Source: Mucilaginibacter rubeus (GTDB lineage Bacteria; Bacteroidota; Bacteroidia; Sphingobacteriales; Sphingobacteriaceae). From it: 64,000 nt of DNA. The stretch is from the NCBI RefSeq assembly GCF_003286415.2, contig NZ_CP043450.1:4278001-4342000 (forward strand). Reading direction: 5' to 3'. Positions within the stretch are counted from its first letter, which is position 1. The number at the start of each line of letters is the position of its first letter. A program made the translations under genes and the position numbers. The notes beneath the pieces were generated by a model. The model did not search any database. It was not told the origin of the DNA and was given only the letters and a program-made list of their open reading frames with translations. Of this stretch, positions 3,760 through 17,562 are shown in pieces.

Positions 3760-4752
3760 ATGACATATATCGCATCTGCCAATAGGTATCAAACCATGCA
3801 GTACCGTCGCTGTGGTAACAGTGGCATCAAACTACCGGCTATTTCATTAGGCCTTTGGCACAATTTCGGTCACGTTGATGTTGCCGATAACTACCGTAAA
3901 ATACTACACCTCGCTTTCGATAGCGGCATCACCCATTTTGATCTAGCCAACAATTACGGTCCGCCTCCGGGCTCGGCCGAAGAAAACTTTGGCAAGATCC
4001 TGAAAGAAGATTTCCGTGATTACCGCGACGAGCTCATCATATCAAGCAAAGCCGGTTATACCATGTGGCCTGGCCCTTATGGCGACTGGGGTTCAAAGAA
4101 ATATCTTGTGGCCAGTCTTGATCAAAGTCTTAAACGTATGGGGCTTGATTATGTAGATATTTTTTATCACCATCGTCCCGATCCAAACACACCGCTTGAA
4201 GAGACCATGGCTGCGTTGGACCTGATCGTTCGCCAGGGGAAAGCTTTGTATGTTGGTATTTCCAATTACCCTGCCGAACTGGCTTCTAAAGCTATTAAAA
4301 TACTTAAAGAACTGGGCACGCCATGTCTTATTCATCAACCCAAATATTCCATGTTTGAGCGCTGGGTTGAAGGTGGCTTGCTTAATGTTTTAGGTAATGA
4401 AGGTGTTGGCTGTATCCCTTTTTCGCCGTTAGCACAAGGATTGTTAACCGATAAATACCTGCACGGCATCCCTGAAGATTCGAGAGCGGCACGGCCAACA
4501 GGTTTCCTTCAAAAAAGCCACATCACCGACGAACGCCTGAGCCAGATCCGGGACCTGAACAACCTGGCAGTGCAGCGCGGGCAATCACTGGCCCAAATGG
4601 CACTGGCCTGGATCCTGAAAGACGAGCGCGTAACATCGGTATTGATTGGCGCAAGCAGACCGGAACAACTATCTGATTCCTTGAAAGCCCTGGATAATAT
4701 CCAGTTTTCGGCCGAAGAATTGACGAGGATAGAAGAAATTTTGGCCCCCTAA
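3760..4752 (+). CDS. yghZ: Aldo/keto reductase, YghZ type (L-glyceraldehyde 3-phosphate reductase)
   Basis: A 330-residue NADPH-dependent aldo/keto reductase. Long stretches match the Escherichia coli YghZ pattern: CGNSGIKLPAISLGLWHNFG, THFDLANNYGPPPGSAEENFG and TSVLIGASRPEQL. The catalytic tetrad is in place: Asp61, Tyr66, Lys97 and His138 (in FYHHR). Family role: reduction of L-glyceraldehyde 3-phosphate and toxic aldehydes such as methylglyoxal. It stands alone between repeat-rich spacers. The length is normal for the family and nothing is odd. Identification is strong; the true substrate is not fixed by sequence. Confidence 0.93.
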   Translation: MTYIASANRYQTMQYRRCGNSGIKLPAISLGLWHNFGHVDVADNYRKILHLAFDSGITHFDLANNYGPPPGSAEENFGKILKEDFRDYRDELIISSKAGYTMWPGPYGDWGSKKYLVASLDQSLKRMGLDYVDIFYHHRPDPNTPLEETMAALDLIVRQGKALYVGISNYPAELASKAIKILKELGTPCLIHQPKYSMFERWVEGGLLNVLGNEGVGCIPFSPLAQGLLTDKYLHGIPEDSRAARPTGFLQKSHITDERLSQIRDLNNLAVQRGQSLAQMALAWILKDERVTSVLIGASRPEQLSDSLKALDNIQFSAEELTRIEEILAP

Positions 4753-4846
4753 CACCCTAAAAGGGGAATAATTGCGGATGACTGCTTTCGCTTTTTGAAA
4801 AGCTTCTCATCAGGGTTTCTCCTAAAGTACCCCTGATGAGGAGCTC

Positions 4847-5665
4847 TTCCGTCTGTTTCTACAATTGGAATTCCTTATTGGGGGAACATGTTTGTGGCAA
4901 AATAAGCAAACAATTTTTTTGCCTCTATAAGCTATCTTTCACAATTTGATATGCATCAGCCACAGGGTAGCACCTAACGGTGCATCTCAATTATTTTAAC
5001 TTCATTCTACAAATAGGTAGCGCCTACGGCGCATTTGTAAAAATTAATATCTTTTTCCGTCTGCTTCTACAATTAGAATTCCCCATAGGGAATACCTGTT
5101 TGTAGCAAAATAATCAAAGTTTTTTTTGCCTCGTAGAGGCTGCCCTCCACAGTTTAATATATATAAGCGACTTGGTAGCGCCTAACTCCAGATTTCAACT
5201 ATTGTGATTCTACAAATAGGTAGCGCCTACGGCGCATCGGTAAAAATCAATAACTTTTTCCGTTTGCTTCTACAATTAGAATTCCTCGTAGGGGGTAGCT
5301 GTTTGTAGAAAAACAAGCAAACGTTTTTTTGCCTCGTTGAGGCTATCCTCCACAGTTTAATATGCATAGCGCCTAACTGCGCATCTCAGCTATTTTAACC
5401 CCATTTTACAAATAAGTAACCTCTAACGGCGCGTCGGTAAAAATTAATAGCTTTTTCCGTCTGCTTCTACAATTACAATTCCCCGTAGGGGATACCTGTT
5501 TGTAGAAAAATAAACAAACATCTTTTTGCCTCGTAGAGGCTACCCTCCACAGTTTAATATGCATAAGCAACCGGGTGGCACCTAATGGCGCATTTCAATT
5601 GTTTAACGTGGTTCTATAATTAGGTAGCGCCTACAGTGCATCGGTAAAAATTATATAGATAGAAG
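4847..5665. repeat. Tandem array of four ~200-bp units built of hairpins
   Basis: Four diverged units start with TTCCGTcTGcTTCTACAATT at 4847, 5055, 5258 and 5455 (spacing 208, 203 and 197), and the last ends near 5665. Each unit carries CTACAA...TTGTAG, a T-rich tract, and several short hairpins with a GTA/TAC loop: GCGCC-TAC-GGCGC (5020-5032, 5223-5235), GCCTC-GTA-GAGGC (5128-5140, 5528-5540), ATTCCCC-GTA-GGGGAT (5478-5493), GCACC-TAAC-GGTGC (4970-4983). The stems differ but stay complementary. There is no convincing coding frame. The same modules recur at 17400-17562. Confidence 0.85.
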
Positions 5666-5737
5666 CCGACGGGTATTTCAAATCATAAAAAATACCTATT
5701 TTCAAGTCCCCTTTACGGGGCGATTTAAAAGGTTAAT

Positions 5738-6715
5738 ATGAGTACAATAAACTGGGGTATTATAGGCTGTGGCAATGTAACCGAAAAAAAAAGCGGACCG
5801 GCATTTAAAAAAGTAGAAGACAGTAACCTTGTGGCCGTTATGCGGCGCGATGCTGAAAAAGCAGCCGATTATGCGGCACGCCACGGTGTTGGCAAATGGT
5901 ACAACGATGCCGACGCATTGCTAAATGATCCGGAACTGAACGCAGTCTATATCGCTACGCCTCCTGCGTCGCACCTCAGCTATGCAATTGATGCGCTTAA
6001 AAAAGGCTTTAATGTTTACGTAGAAAAACCGGTAACCCGCAACTCGGCCGAAGCAAAGGCTATGGCGGTGGCCGTAAATGAAAGCAGTTCAAAGCTTACC
6101 GTTGCGCACTATCGCCGGGCCCTGCCAATGTTTTTAAAAGTTAAGGAACTGATAGATACACAGCTTGTAGGCGATATCCGTACTGCACAGATCAGGATGT
6201 GGCAAAGCCGTAAACCCAGCCCGGTTGCCGACGTGGAAACCAACTGGCGTGTACTGCCCGAACTATCAGGCGGTGGCTATTTTCATGACCTTGCCCCTCA
6301 TCAGCTCGACCTCATGTTATATTTTTTCGGCGAGCCTGAAATGTATCATGGTTTTTCGCTTAACCAATCAAATTCAACACCTGCCGACGATCATGTATGC
6401 GGGCAGATCCTGTTTAAAAACAAGGTGGTGGTTAATGGGTCATGGTGCTTTAATGTAGCCGAAAGTGAAACTACCGATACCTGCGAGATAGTTGGTACCA
6501 AAGGAAAAATAACCTTCCCGTTTTTTGGCAACTACATCAACTGGAAAACCGACACTGAAGAAGAAACCATAACATTTACCCATCCGGAGCATATCCAACA
6601 ACCGTTTATCACAAAAATAGTAGCTTACTTTAAAGGCGAAGGACCTAACCCCTGCCCTATTGAAGAAGCTGTAACGCTGATGGATATCATCGACGCGTTT
6701 ACTTTAAAGAAATAA
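5738..6715 (+). CDS. Gfo/Idh/MocA family oxidoreductase
   Basis: A 325-residue NAD(P)-dependent dehydrogenase. The N-terminal Rossmann fold is seen in INWGIIGCGNVTEKKSGPAF (residues 4-23). VYIATPPASH follows, then EKPVTRN, the family's EKP signature with the catalytic-site lysine. A C-terminal alpha/beta substrate domain contains GGGYFHDLAPHQLDLM. Family role: oxidation or reduction of sugars, inositols or other polyols; the substrate cannot be read from sequence. A small CCCC/GGGG hairpin lies about 20 bp upstream. The stop codon directly abuts the ATG of the M48 peptidase gene, so the two are translated from one message. Confidence 0.9.
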   Translation: MSTINWGIIGCGNVTEKKSGPAFKKVEDSNLVAVMRRDAEKAADYAARHGVGKWYNDADALLNDPELNAVYIATPPASHLSYAIDALKKGFNVYVEKPVTRNSAEAKAMAVAVNESSSKLTVAHYRRALPMFLKVKELIDTQLVGDIRTAQIRMWQSRKPSPVADVETNWRVLPELSGGGYFHDLAPHQLDLMLYFFGEPEMYHGFSLNQSNSTPADDHVCGQILFKNKVVVNGSWCFNVAESETTDTCEIVGTKGKITFPFFGNYINWKTDTEEETITFTHPEHIQQPFITKIVAYFKGEGPNPCPIEEAVTLMDIIDAFTLKK

Positions 6716-12274: not shown

Positions 12275-13159
12275 ATGAAAATACTTAGACCCGTTTTTTT
12301 ATTTCTGCTGATGATAGGCAGCTCCAGCTTGTTTGCGCAGCAAGGCAAAGTACTTGAAGAGCAAAATATAAAAAGCAAAATTTTAAAGCGCAGCGTCAAC
12401 TACGCAGTGTACCTTCCCCCCGATTACGAATCGGCTAACCGCACTTACCCGGTGGTTTACCTATTGCACGGTTATACAGACGACCATACCGGCTGGCTAC
12501 AATTTGGTGAGGTTAACCGCTATGCGGATAAGGCCATTGCCGATGGTACTATCCCCCCAATGATCATCGTAATGCCAAATGCCGATTCGAGCTGGTATAT
12601 CAACTCGTACGATGGTAAAGAGAAATATGAGGACTTCTTTATTAAAGAGTTTATGCCTCATGTTGAAAAGATCTTTCGCGTTAAAGCCGAAAAAAAATAC
12701 CGCGGCGTAGCTGGTCTTTCGATGGGCGGCTATGGTACGTTGATCTATACACTTAAACATCCCGACCTGTTCGCGGCAGGAGCGGCTTTAAGTGCCGCTG
12801 TATTTCCCGATGATCAACTGATCAGCACTCCAGACGATACCTATGATAAAATATTCGCCCAGCTTTATGGCCGGGGCTTAAAAGGGAAAGACCGGGTTAA
12901 CAATGCCTGGTTAAGCAATTCAGTTTTAAACATGGTACAAACCAAAACTACCGATGAACTAAAAACTGTAAGGTACTGGATAGATTGCGGCGACGACGAT
13001 TTCCTGAGCAAAGGCAATTGTTTGTTGCATATCGCTCTTACTGAAAAAAATGTACCGCATGAATTCCGGGTGCGCGACGGAGCCCACACCTGGACTTACT
13101 GGCGTACCGGTATCATCAATGCGCTGGCATTTATTGGAGATAGCTTCAGACAGAAATAA
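12275..13159 (+). CDS. Exported esterase, alpha/beta-hydrolase of the esterase D / enterochelin esterase type
   Basis: A 294-residue protein with a signal peptide (about 1-21, ending SSLFAQ). The fold is PF00756-like: YAVYLPPDYE and YPVVYLLHGYTDDHTGW, then nucleophile Ser149 in GLSMGGYG, an acid in the DCGDDDF segment, and His271 in DGAHTWTYW. Relatives hydrolyse ferulate, acetyl or other acyl esters on polysaccharides, or S-formylglutathione. With a signal peptide, a polysaccharide or xenobiotic ester outside the cytoplasm is likely. A close paralogue follows directly downstream. The substrate is unknown. Confidence 0.85.
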   Translation: MKILRPVFLFLLMIGSSSLFAQQGKVLEEQNIKSKILKRSVNYAVYLPPDYESANRTYPVVYLLHGYTDDHTGWLQFGEVNRYADKAIADGTIPPMIIVMPNADSSWYINSYDGKEKYEDFFIKEFMPHVEKIFRVKAEKKYRGVAGLSMGGYGTLIYTLKHPDLFAAGAALSAAVFPDDQLISTPDDTYDKIFAQLYGRGLKGKDRVNNAWLSNSVLNMVQTKTTDELKTVRYWIDCGDDDFLSKGNCLLHIALTEKNVPHEFRVRDGAHTWTYWRTGIINALAFIGDSFRQK

Positions 13160-13163
13160 TTAG

Positions 13164-13231
13164 GTAGATGTGCAGATTTCAGATGTGCAGATATGCAATT
13201 GAATATTTCAAATCTGCAATTGGCCATTTAA
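13164..13231. repeat. GATGTGCAGAT-type intergenic repeat
   Basis: The 88-bp gap between the two esterase genes contains AGATGTGCAGAT twice, then ATGCAATTG and its partial inverse CAAATCTGCAATTG. This is a small palindromic repeat of a kind frequent in Bacteroidota spacers. It lies between two tandem paralogues and contains no gene. Confidence 0.5.
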
Positions 13232-13247
13232 TTGATTTTACAAGAAT

Positions 13248-14135
13248 ATGAGTACTATAAAAAGGATTTTGCTGCTTTGCTTACTATTTATTTCGGTAAA
13301 TGCATTTGCGCAAACTACCGGCAAAGTGATTGAGGAACAATACGTAAAAAGCGATATTTTAAATCACAACGTAAAATACGCGGTTTACTTGCCTGCCGAT
13401 TATGAAACATCTAACCGCACCTATCCGGTGGTATACCTGTTGCATGGCTACGGTGATGATCATACCGGCTGGCTTCAGTTTGGAGAAGTTAACCGCTATG
13501 CTGATAAAGCCATTGCCGATGGTACTATCCCTCCAATGATCATTGTTATGCCCGATGCAGGAACAAGTTGGTACATCAATGCCTATAATGGCAAACAGAG
13601 TTACGAAGATTTCTTTTTTAAAGAGTTTATACCGGCTATCGAAAATGAGTTCCGGATCAAAGGCACCAAACAATATCGCGGTGTAGCCGGTCTTTCTATG
13701 GGTGGTTTCGGCACTTTGGAGTACAGCATAAAACATCCCGACATGTTCTCTGCAGCAGCAGCTCTAAGCGCGGCCGTACGCACCGATGAAGATTTTATGG
13801 CCGTGACCGACGAGCGCTGGAAAGAAGCATACAGTAAAGTATTTGGCCCCGAGCTTAAAGGGAAAGAACGCCTTAATGCTACCTGGCAGGCTAACTCTAT
13901 ATTAGGGCTGGTGCAAATCAAAACGACCGATGAACTGAAAAGCGTTAGGTACTGGATAGATTGCGGTGATGACGATGCCCTGAGCAAAGGAAATAGCCTG
14001 CTGCATATAGCCCTAACAGAAAAGAAAGTACCCCATGAGTTCCGCATCCGTGATGGTGCCCACAACTGGACTTACTGGCGCACCGGTATTACCGACGCGT
14101 TGGCATTTATTGGGGATAGTTTTAGACAGAAGTAA
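13248..14135 (+). CDS. Exported esterase, tandem paralogue
   Basis: A 295-residue protein with signal peptide (about 1-21, ending NAFAQ) and the same alpha/beta-hydrolase layout as the gene before it: YLLHGYGDDHTGW, GLSMGGFG with the nucleophile Ser, DCGDDDA and DGAHNWTYW with the catalytic His. By eye about 70 percent of residues are shared, and stretches of DNA are nearly identical (for example around NRYADKAIADGTIPPMIIVM), so this is a recent tandem duplication. Differences cluster in the region after the nucleophile (about 165-200), the lid that usually shapes the substrate pocket, so the copies may differ in specificity. Confidence 0.85.
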   Translation: MSTIKRILLLCLLFISVNAFAQTTGKVIEEQYVKSDILNHNVKYAVYLPADYETSNRTYPVVYLLHGYGDDHTGWLQFGEVNRYADKAIADGTIPPMIIVMPDAGTSWYINAYNGKQSYEDFFFKEFIPAIENEFRIKGTKQYRGVAGLSMGGFGTLEYSIKHPDMFSAAAALSAAVRTDEDFMAVTDERWKEAYSKVFGPELKGKERLNATWQANSILGLVQIKTTDELKSVRYWIDCGDDDALSKGNSLLHIALTEKKVPHEFRIRDGAHNWTYWRTGITDALAFIGDSFRQK

Positions 14136-17399: not shown

Positions 17400-17562
17400 A
17401 ATACCTTGCGCCGTTAGGCGCTACCTGTTTGTAGCCCACCATTCGAAAAATACTTTGCGCCGTAGGTGCAACCCAATATTCACCAAATTCGCCAGGGTAG
17501 CCCCTACGAGGCAAAAGGTTATTATTTGATTTTTGCTACAAACAGGTATCCCCTACGGGGAA
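17400..17562. repeat. Mosaic of GTA/TAC-loop hairpin modules
   Basis: It carries GCGCC-GTTA-GGCGC (17408-17421), TGCGCC-GTA-GGTGCA (17456-17470), GCCCC-TAC-GAGGC (near 17488) and TCCCC-TAC-GGGGA (17549-17561), together with CTACCTGTTTGTAG and GCTACAAACAGG. These are the modules of the tandem array at 4847-5665, partly in the reverse orientation. No coding frame. Confidence 0.75.

Follow-up and report, generated by a model that had tools for sequence, protein, structure and literature searches.

The hairpin array at positions 4847-5660 of the window, which denotes the whole stretch of 64,000 nucleotides analyzed here (C1:4278001-4342000 of the single 7.63-Mb contig C1 of the Mucilaginibacter rubeus genome), is probably a tandem run, now decayed in part, of a non-autonomous REP/BIME-like repeat that is served by a Y1 transposase of subclass 1.2. 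The hairpins are most likely the predicted recognition sites of this small HUH tyrosine (Y1) transposase.

Architecture and decay of the array

As described in the original prediction, the array consists of four direct copies of approximately 200 bp, for which a spacing of 208, 203 and 197 bp was determined. It is non-coding and located between two unrelated genes, an aldo/keto reductase gene on the one side and a Gfo/Idh/MocA oxidoreductase gene on the other. The ORF list contained no ORF of at least 90 aa over the array, and a coding function was rejected. Each unit comprises four hairpins in the order A-B-B'-A'. This inverted-symmetric quartet is the basic element of the family and measures approximately 150-200 bp. 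The A hairpin has the form stem5-GTA-stem5 followed by TACCTGTTTGTAG, the B hairpin consists of a T-rich run, stem5-GTA-stem5 and TACCC, and B' and A' correspond to B and A read from the opposite strand. The hairpins quoted in the original prediction are real and comprise the loop GTA (TAC in the other reading) and the flanks CTACAA/TTGTAG. The units, which were classed by eye, and individual hairpins are as follows:

4847-5054, no strand: unit 1; A+ and B+ damaged, B- and A- intact
5055-5257, no strand: unit 2; A+ with one mismatch, B+ intact, B- damaged, A- intact
5258-5453, no strand: unit 3; A+ with two G-T pairs, B+ intact, B- with one mismatch, A- damaged
5454-5660, no strand: unit 4; A+ and B+ intact, B- with one mismatch, A- damaged
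4970-4983, minus strand: inverted type B' hairpin, GGGTA-GCACC-TAAC-GGTGC
5007-5032, minus strand: inverted type A hairpin, stem class GCGCC as at 5210-5235
5210-5235, minus strand: inverted type A hairpin, CTACAAATAGGTA-GCGCC-TAC-GGCGC
5480-5505, plus strand: type A hairpin with foot, TCCCC-GTA-GGGGA-TACCTGTTTGTAG, GTAG 9 nt past the stem
5528-5545, plus strand: type B hairpin, T-rich run, GCCTC-GTA-GAGGC-TACCC, without GTAG tag

A comparison at the corresponding positions of the four units showed five Watson-Crick pairs in 7 of the 16 stems, while the remaining nine carried one to four non-Watson-Crick pairs each, some of them G-T. No clear pair of compensatory changes was found at these positions in the alignment. 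Since only seven stems are intact and the others are damaged, the array alone shows decay and not covariation. The stems that had been taken to covary from unit to unit (GCGCC, GCCTC, TCCCC and GCACC) turned out to occupy the positions A', B, A and B' of one unit. The damage to nine of the 16 stems agrees in part with the observation, stems mutating without compensation, that had been named as speaking against the original prediction. A simple recent duplication of the units was rejected, since they are only 65-85% alike to the reference copy, and the copies in the array look old and partly dead.

These observations could also be explained by a mere segmental tandem duplication through recombination, in which case the repeats would be fossils without a link to an active enzyme. 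The low number of intact stems, the tandem spacing of about 200 bp and the differences in unit number at orthologous loci described below are in line with such an origin. It leaves the dispersed copies, the species-specific perfect stems and the association with Y1 genes unexplained, however, and is considered rather unlikely as a full account, although for the array taken singly it could well hold.

Two further observations were made in the window. Directly before the array, a separate 24-nt inverted repeat with 83% complementarity was found at 4797-4849, and M. kameinonensis appears by eye to carry a differently spelled hairpin at about the matching position. At 12275-14135, two adjacent and very similar ORFs resembling alpha/beta-hydrolases (esterases) probably represent a tandem duplication, likewise judged by eye.

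Dispersed copies and covariation of the stems

The repeat is not confined to the array. In the own genome, A-type sites were found in 22 clusters, including the array and the Y1 locus described below. At least two A hairpins were present in 15 of the 21 clusters besides the array (16 of 22 with the array counted), and 21 of the 22 clusters overlap no ORF of at least 110 aa. Accordingly, the clusters show the dispersed intergenic placement, often as inverted pairs, by which REPs are defined. The flanking genes were co-directional in 11 cases, convergent in nine and divergent in one, and one cluster was not classed. One solitary copy lies in the window itself:

17408-17561 (cluster C1:4295414-4295556), no strand: single A-B-B'-A' unit belonging to the family, located between two convergent genes; as read from the sequence, the two A hairpins are intact and one mismatch is present in each of the B hairpins

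Outside the array, 14 units comprised a left A and a right A' hairpin, with the TCCCC class at one end (once shifted to TTCCC) and GCGCC or GCACC at the other.

Among the loci compared, M. endophyticus and M. kameinonensis were the nearest titled relatives, with a DNA identity of 86-99% in those parts of the shared element loci that aligned. The array is represented by two units in M. endophyticus and is missing in M. kameinonensis and five other Mucilaginibacter genomes (six of the seven compared); the spacer of M. kameinonensis contains only what look by eye like decayed bits. Differences in unit number were also observed elsewhere. The 3080k locus comprises one unit in the own genome and additional A hairpins in both close relatives, and the 5752k locus comprises two units in the own genome and in M. 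kameinonensis compared to one in M. endophyticus. For 20 of the 21 own clusters beside the array, at least one of the two close relatives has the locus occupied as well, and recent movement is therefore not seen. In the comparison of the own loci with these two genomes, no clean empty site and no target duplication were found, and the sole candidate carried another repeat. A palindromic repeat of the form CCCTCCC...GGGAGGG was observed at C1:164091-164306 (L278) and in M. kameinonensis (L279) where M. endophyticus has an A-B-B'-A' unit.

Copies were also collected by pattern across genomes and their covariation was counted. With a stem-blind pattern, in which only the loop and the foot are fixed, 192 sites were obtained from 11 of 15 titled genomes, compared to 0-2 matches per genome for the reversed control pattern. 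Perfect 5-bp stems were present in 156 of the 190 listed sites from 11 other genomes and fell into 14 stem classes. In the own genome, the loop was read as 3 or 4 bases, whichever gave the better pairing, and 37 of the 46 A feet at the loci examined then showed five Watson-Crick pairs. For 64 distinct A hairpins, five of which are probably chance matches that were retained, 64 cells were changed on both sides compared to a shuffled mean of 16.5, and the covariation score was 0.618 compared to 0.184 in the shuffles; in both cases none of 500 shuffles was as high. Only A hairpins entered this count. Kinship of the rows can exceed shuffles without any structure, but the slid controls, which retain this kinship, reached far lower values of at most 17 cells and a score of 0.143. 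Simply counting the pairs that changed on both sides is uninformative, since the result of 5 of 5 was also reached by 205 of the 500 shuffles. Altogether, selection on structure, as originally suggested, is supported for the hairpin family across genomes and not within the array alone.

Of 27 single mismatches in the A stems, read on the TACC strand, 18 were G-T or T-G and four were A-C or C-A, the rows not being independent. This lean hints at the strand that folds or could be mutational, and it was less pronounced in the sets from M. endophyticus, M. kameinonensis and the own genome. On the GGTA strand, 13 of the 14 perfect stem classes start with G, which gives GTA+G at the foot with that G paired, and the common TCCCC class gives GTAT. 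In the wider set, a constant GTAG is found 7-9 nt away, on the side opposite to the GGTA-strand foot.

The original prediction had also considered a structured RNA. The units could then be 3'-UTR hairpins that stabilize or end transcripts, or a small RNA, and the connection with Y1 genes would be secondary. The covariation of the stems is in line with this, and the G-T and A-C mismatches mentioned above would be tolerable in an RNA hairpin. Furthermore, only one of the 21 classed clusters lies between divergent genes, and a terminator scan of 4600-5900 returned five sites compared to 1.6 expected, four of them on A hairpins with a T-rich tail. On the other hand, no Rfam match was obtained at the gathering cut-off in the 64-kb window, and the inverted symmetry of the unit means that either transcript holds hairpins of both orientations. 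The units are moreover decaying, and the array is absent from most of the Mucilaginibacter genomes compared. Since the long T runs are located 5' of the B hairpins, which is the wrong side for an intrinsic terminator, this was rejected as a general function, although the A hairpins do give terminator-like matches. Taken together with the density of hairpins beside Y1 genes given below, a structured RNA is regarded as improbable.

Conservation of the loci in close relatives could also reflect binding sites of a host protein (nucleoid protein, gyrase or replication factor) selected for a host function, and REPs in other systems are indeed described to bind host proteins (PMC6006769, in the parts of the text available). 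Against this stand the differences of the stems between species, the number of sites ranging from 0 to 62 per genome with the pattern used, and the damage to the array, so that such a role appears highly improbable. Of the guesses made originally, that of a selfish element fits best, given that the copies are dispersed and intergenic and that hairpins of this kind recur next to Y1 transposase genes in many species.

Hairpins at Y1 transposase genes

A profile search with PF01797 gave six Y1 matches in the own genome. One of these genes (C1:6949641-6950129) is followed within 300 bp by the hairpins B-, A-, A+ and B+, the first of which begins in the stop codon. Its protein passes the Pfam Y1 cut-off and the NCBIfam IS200 model (score of 87, cut-off of 55), and fails the RAYT model REP_Tyr_transpos (26 bits, cut-off of 80). 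By sequence match it resembles solved IS200-type transposases such as that of ISHp608. The motifs DHLH, WQ and YILNQKQHH suggest an assignment to TnpA-Y1 subclass 1.2, with the L of DHLH lying outside the published DH[IV]H consensus. Among 80 homologues, Y..Q..HH was found in 79, WQ in 78 and [DN]HxH, in a loose search, in 79; in 10 of the 80 genes a stop codon lies inside the matched stretch. Searching the own genome with the gene gave three matches, at 100, 47 and 37% identity, which leaves no near-identical second copy. The paralogue at 47% identity (C1:7288143-7288592, L023) has hairpins of its own nearby, ACTCC-ATA-GGAGT with the foot GTTTATAG.

The association was quantified at 80 titled homologue loci (55-95% identity), the top-ranking ones among 247. 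Hairpins with a perfect stem of 5-7 bp and a TAC[CT] end showed a density of 1.86/kb within 250 bp of the gene compared to 0.051/kb beyond 1 kb. With a wider rule, which admits the loops GTA, ATA, GTTA and kin (RTA hairpins), the density was 4.37/kb within 300 bp compared to 0.109/kb beyond 1 kb. In all these counts, and in those of the held-out set and of the two sets of 20 relatives below, one palindrome may be scored twice, with a loop of 3 and with a loop of 4, both close to the gene and far from it. RTA hairpins are thus 40 times denser beside the Y1 genes, which argues against the RNA explanation weighed above. An RTA hairpin within 300 bp was present at 68 of the 80 loci and missing at 12, and a GTAG-tagged one was present at 52. 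Of 208 RTA hairpins, 155 face the gene, and in 85 of the 88 tagged ones a distance of 7-9 nt separates the GTAG from the stem; both the loop list and this offset were chosen after inspection of the 80 loci. Members with hairpins include records from Saprospiraceae, Cyclobacteriaceae and Ignavibacteria (L218, L198 and L212).

A held-out set comprised 27 loci after removal of two (L286 and L288) that are identical to training loci. Here, an RTA hairpin was found at 22 loci and missing at five, and with the GTAG offset widened to 6-10 nt, as in the two sets of 20 relatives below, a tagged one was found at 11 and missing at 16. Near the genes 51 hairpins (3.25/kb) were counted compared to 10 (0.245/kb) far from them, of which 17 and two were tagged. 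With decreasing identity, the association is lost. In two sets of 20 relatives each, hand-picked among the matches listed, RTA hairpins occurred at 11 loci (four tagged) for 42-52% identity and at three (none tagged) for 35-41%. In a separate set, which includes six loci identical to training loci and whose motif flags are valid only for plus-strand matches, relatives below 40% identity showed an RTA loop in three of eight cases and a tagged one in none. Such hairpins were likewise found at none of the three own Y1 genes L024-L026, which look class 2-like. Accordingly, the assumption that any Y1 gene has such hairpins was rejected; the association holds for the own Y1 clade and not for distant Y1 genes.

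In three species, the dispersed stems largely equal the stem beside the Y1 gene. In M. dorajii, GCCGC was found in 57 of 62 sites (48 of 52 outside the Y1 locus), in M. flavus the Y1-side GCCGC was matched by 24 of 35 (18 of 27 outside), and in M. phenanthrenivorans the Y1-side GACCC by 13 of 20 (9 of 16 outside). In contrast, the dispersed A stems of the own genome, M. endophyticus and M. kameinonensis (TCCCC, GCGCC and GCACC) do not match the Y1-side A stems (GCCTC and GCCCC), and only the B stem GCCTC agrees. In pseudomonads, orthologous RAYTs can have REPs of different classes next to them, as described in the available part of PMC3686654, and the mismatch would fit this. When one stem pattern was searched in seven genomes, only a Saprospiraceae genome gave matches, seven in number, and six of these were located at the Y1 locus.

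In M. phenanthrenivorans (L154), a gene-bearing arrangement A-B-gene-B'-A' is followed by a gene-less A-B-B'-A'. Head-to-tail A hairpins, in stretches with a spacing of about 48-51 bp, were observed beside Y1 genes in M. dorajii (L156:2135-2674) and M. flavus (L208:1759-2451); these regular arrays could pass for CRISPR.

Relation to known repeat systems

A close counterpart of the protein is TnpA-Y1 subclass 1.2, with which it shares the HUH, WQ and Y---Q--HH motifs, a length of about 150-165 aa, a low copy number and the occurrence in Bacteroidota (PMC6006769, as far as its text was available). Table 1 of this survey (Quentin et al. 2018) lists REPs as 'no' for the subclass, and its genes are described there as generally lacking typical IS200 end structures, whereas 68 of the 80 loci studied here have REP-like hairpins within 300 bp.

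Regarding the repeats, the arrangement resembles the 'REPtron' of REP/BIME/REPIN and TnpA-REP (RAYT). According to the accessible parts of the literature (PMC6006769, PMC8266576, PMC2817692, PMC3686654, PMC3733652), both comprise short, GC-rich, GTAG-tagged palindromes that are intergenic and dispersed, occur as inverted pairs or mosaics, have species-specific stems and flank a Y1 HUH gene. A cognate Y1 gene flanked by the same repeats was found here as well, with exact agreement in the own clade only for the B stem. The unlike ends of the units recall E. coli BIMEs, which combine unlike REPs. There are also differences. The own protein carries Y---Q--HH and not the class 2 motif (YIxxNP) ending in NP, and its score lies below the cut-off of the RAYT model. 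In the wider set, the constant tag is located 7-9 nt from the hairpin, 3' on the TACC strand, compared to the 5' foot in REPs, and the unit is a quartet A-B-B'-A'.

Insertion sequences of the IS200/IS605 type (subclass 1.1) share the Y1 HUH transposase, the IS200 model score above the cut-off and hairpins near the gene, but the own genome lacks the near-identical gene copies of a multi-copy element, and here the hairpins of the two sides are mutually inverted. Cleavage at guide-selected tetranucleotides and a single-strand circle as intermediate are further marks of these insertion sequences. The 'TIRtrons' are TIR-associated Y1 genes with inverted repeats at their flanks, and part of these repeats likewise make up dispersed families. 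Those listed in the available part of PMC3733652 belong to other taxa and have other sequences, and the fixed hairpin-spacer-GTAG layout is not described there. A search of the literature on Mucilaginibacter and on Bacteroidetes REPs, mostly outside subscription papers, gave no description of the hairpin family.

For TnpA-REP, the use of the GTAG motif together with hairpin features and the cleavage of single strands at C|T near the REP are described (PMC8266576, available text). By analogy, a hairpin would form when the region becomes single-stranded, with the folding strand possibly being the one at which the mismatches hint, and the subclass 1.2 enzyme would read the shape of the stem and the GTA loop together with the GTAG/CTAC tag, at a distance of 7-9 nt. 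It would then cleave beside the tag and join the ends, whereby units could spread between genes, and recombination between repeats may in addition generate tandem copies such as those of the array. Because recognition would require a paired stem, stems may drift if both arms change, which would lead to species-specific stems.

In a more far-reaching reading, the family could constitute a second REP system, independent of RAYTs and built on the IS200-like subclass 1.2 of Bacteroidota. The quartets with their 7-9 nt ruler between hairpin and GTAG would then be stand-alone single-strand DNA transposons served in trans, and subclass 1.2 would represent an extant form that stands between insertion sequences on the one hand and domesticated RAYTs on the other. 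This idea is put forward tentatively and is about as apt to fail as to hold, if not somewhat more so.

The array and its relatives supply a likely substrate for a transposase subclass whose description in 2018 named none, and they add repeats with another arrangement of the tag to what is known of REP-like systems in Bacteroidota. The 14 perfect stem classes furthermore represent a natural stem-swap series for studying how HUH enzymes recognize the shape of a hairpin rather than its sequence.
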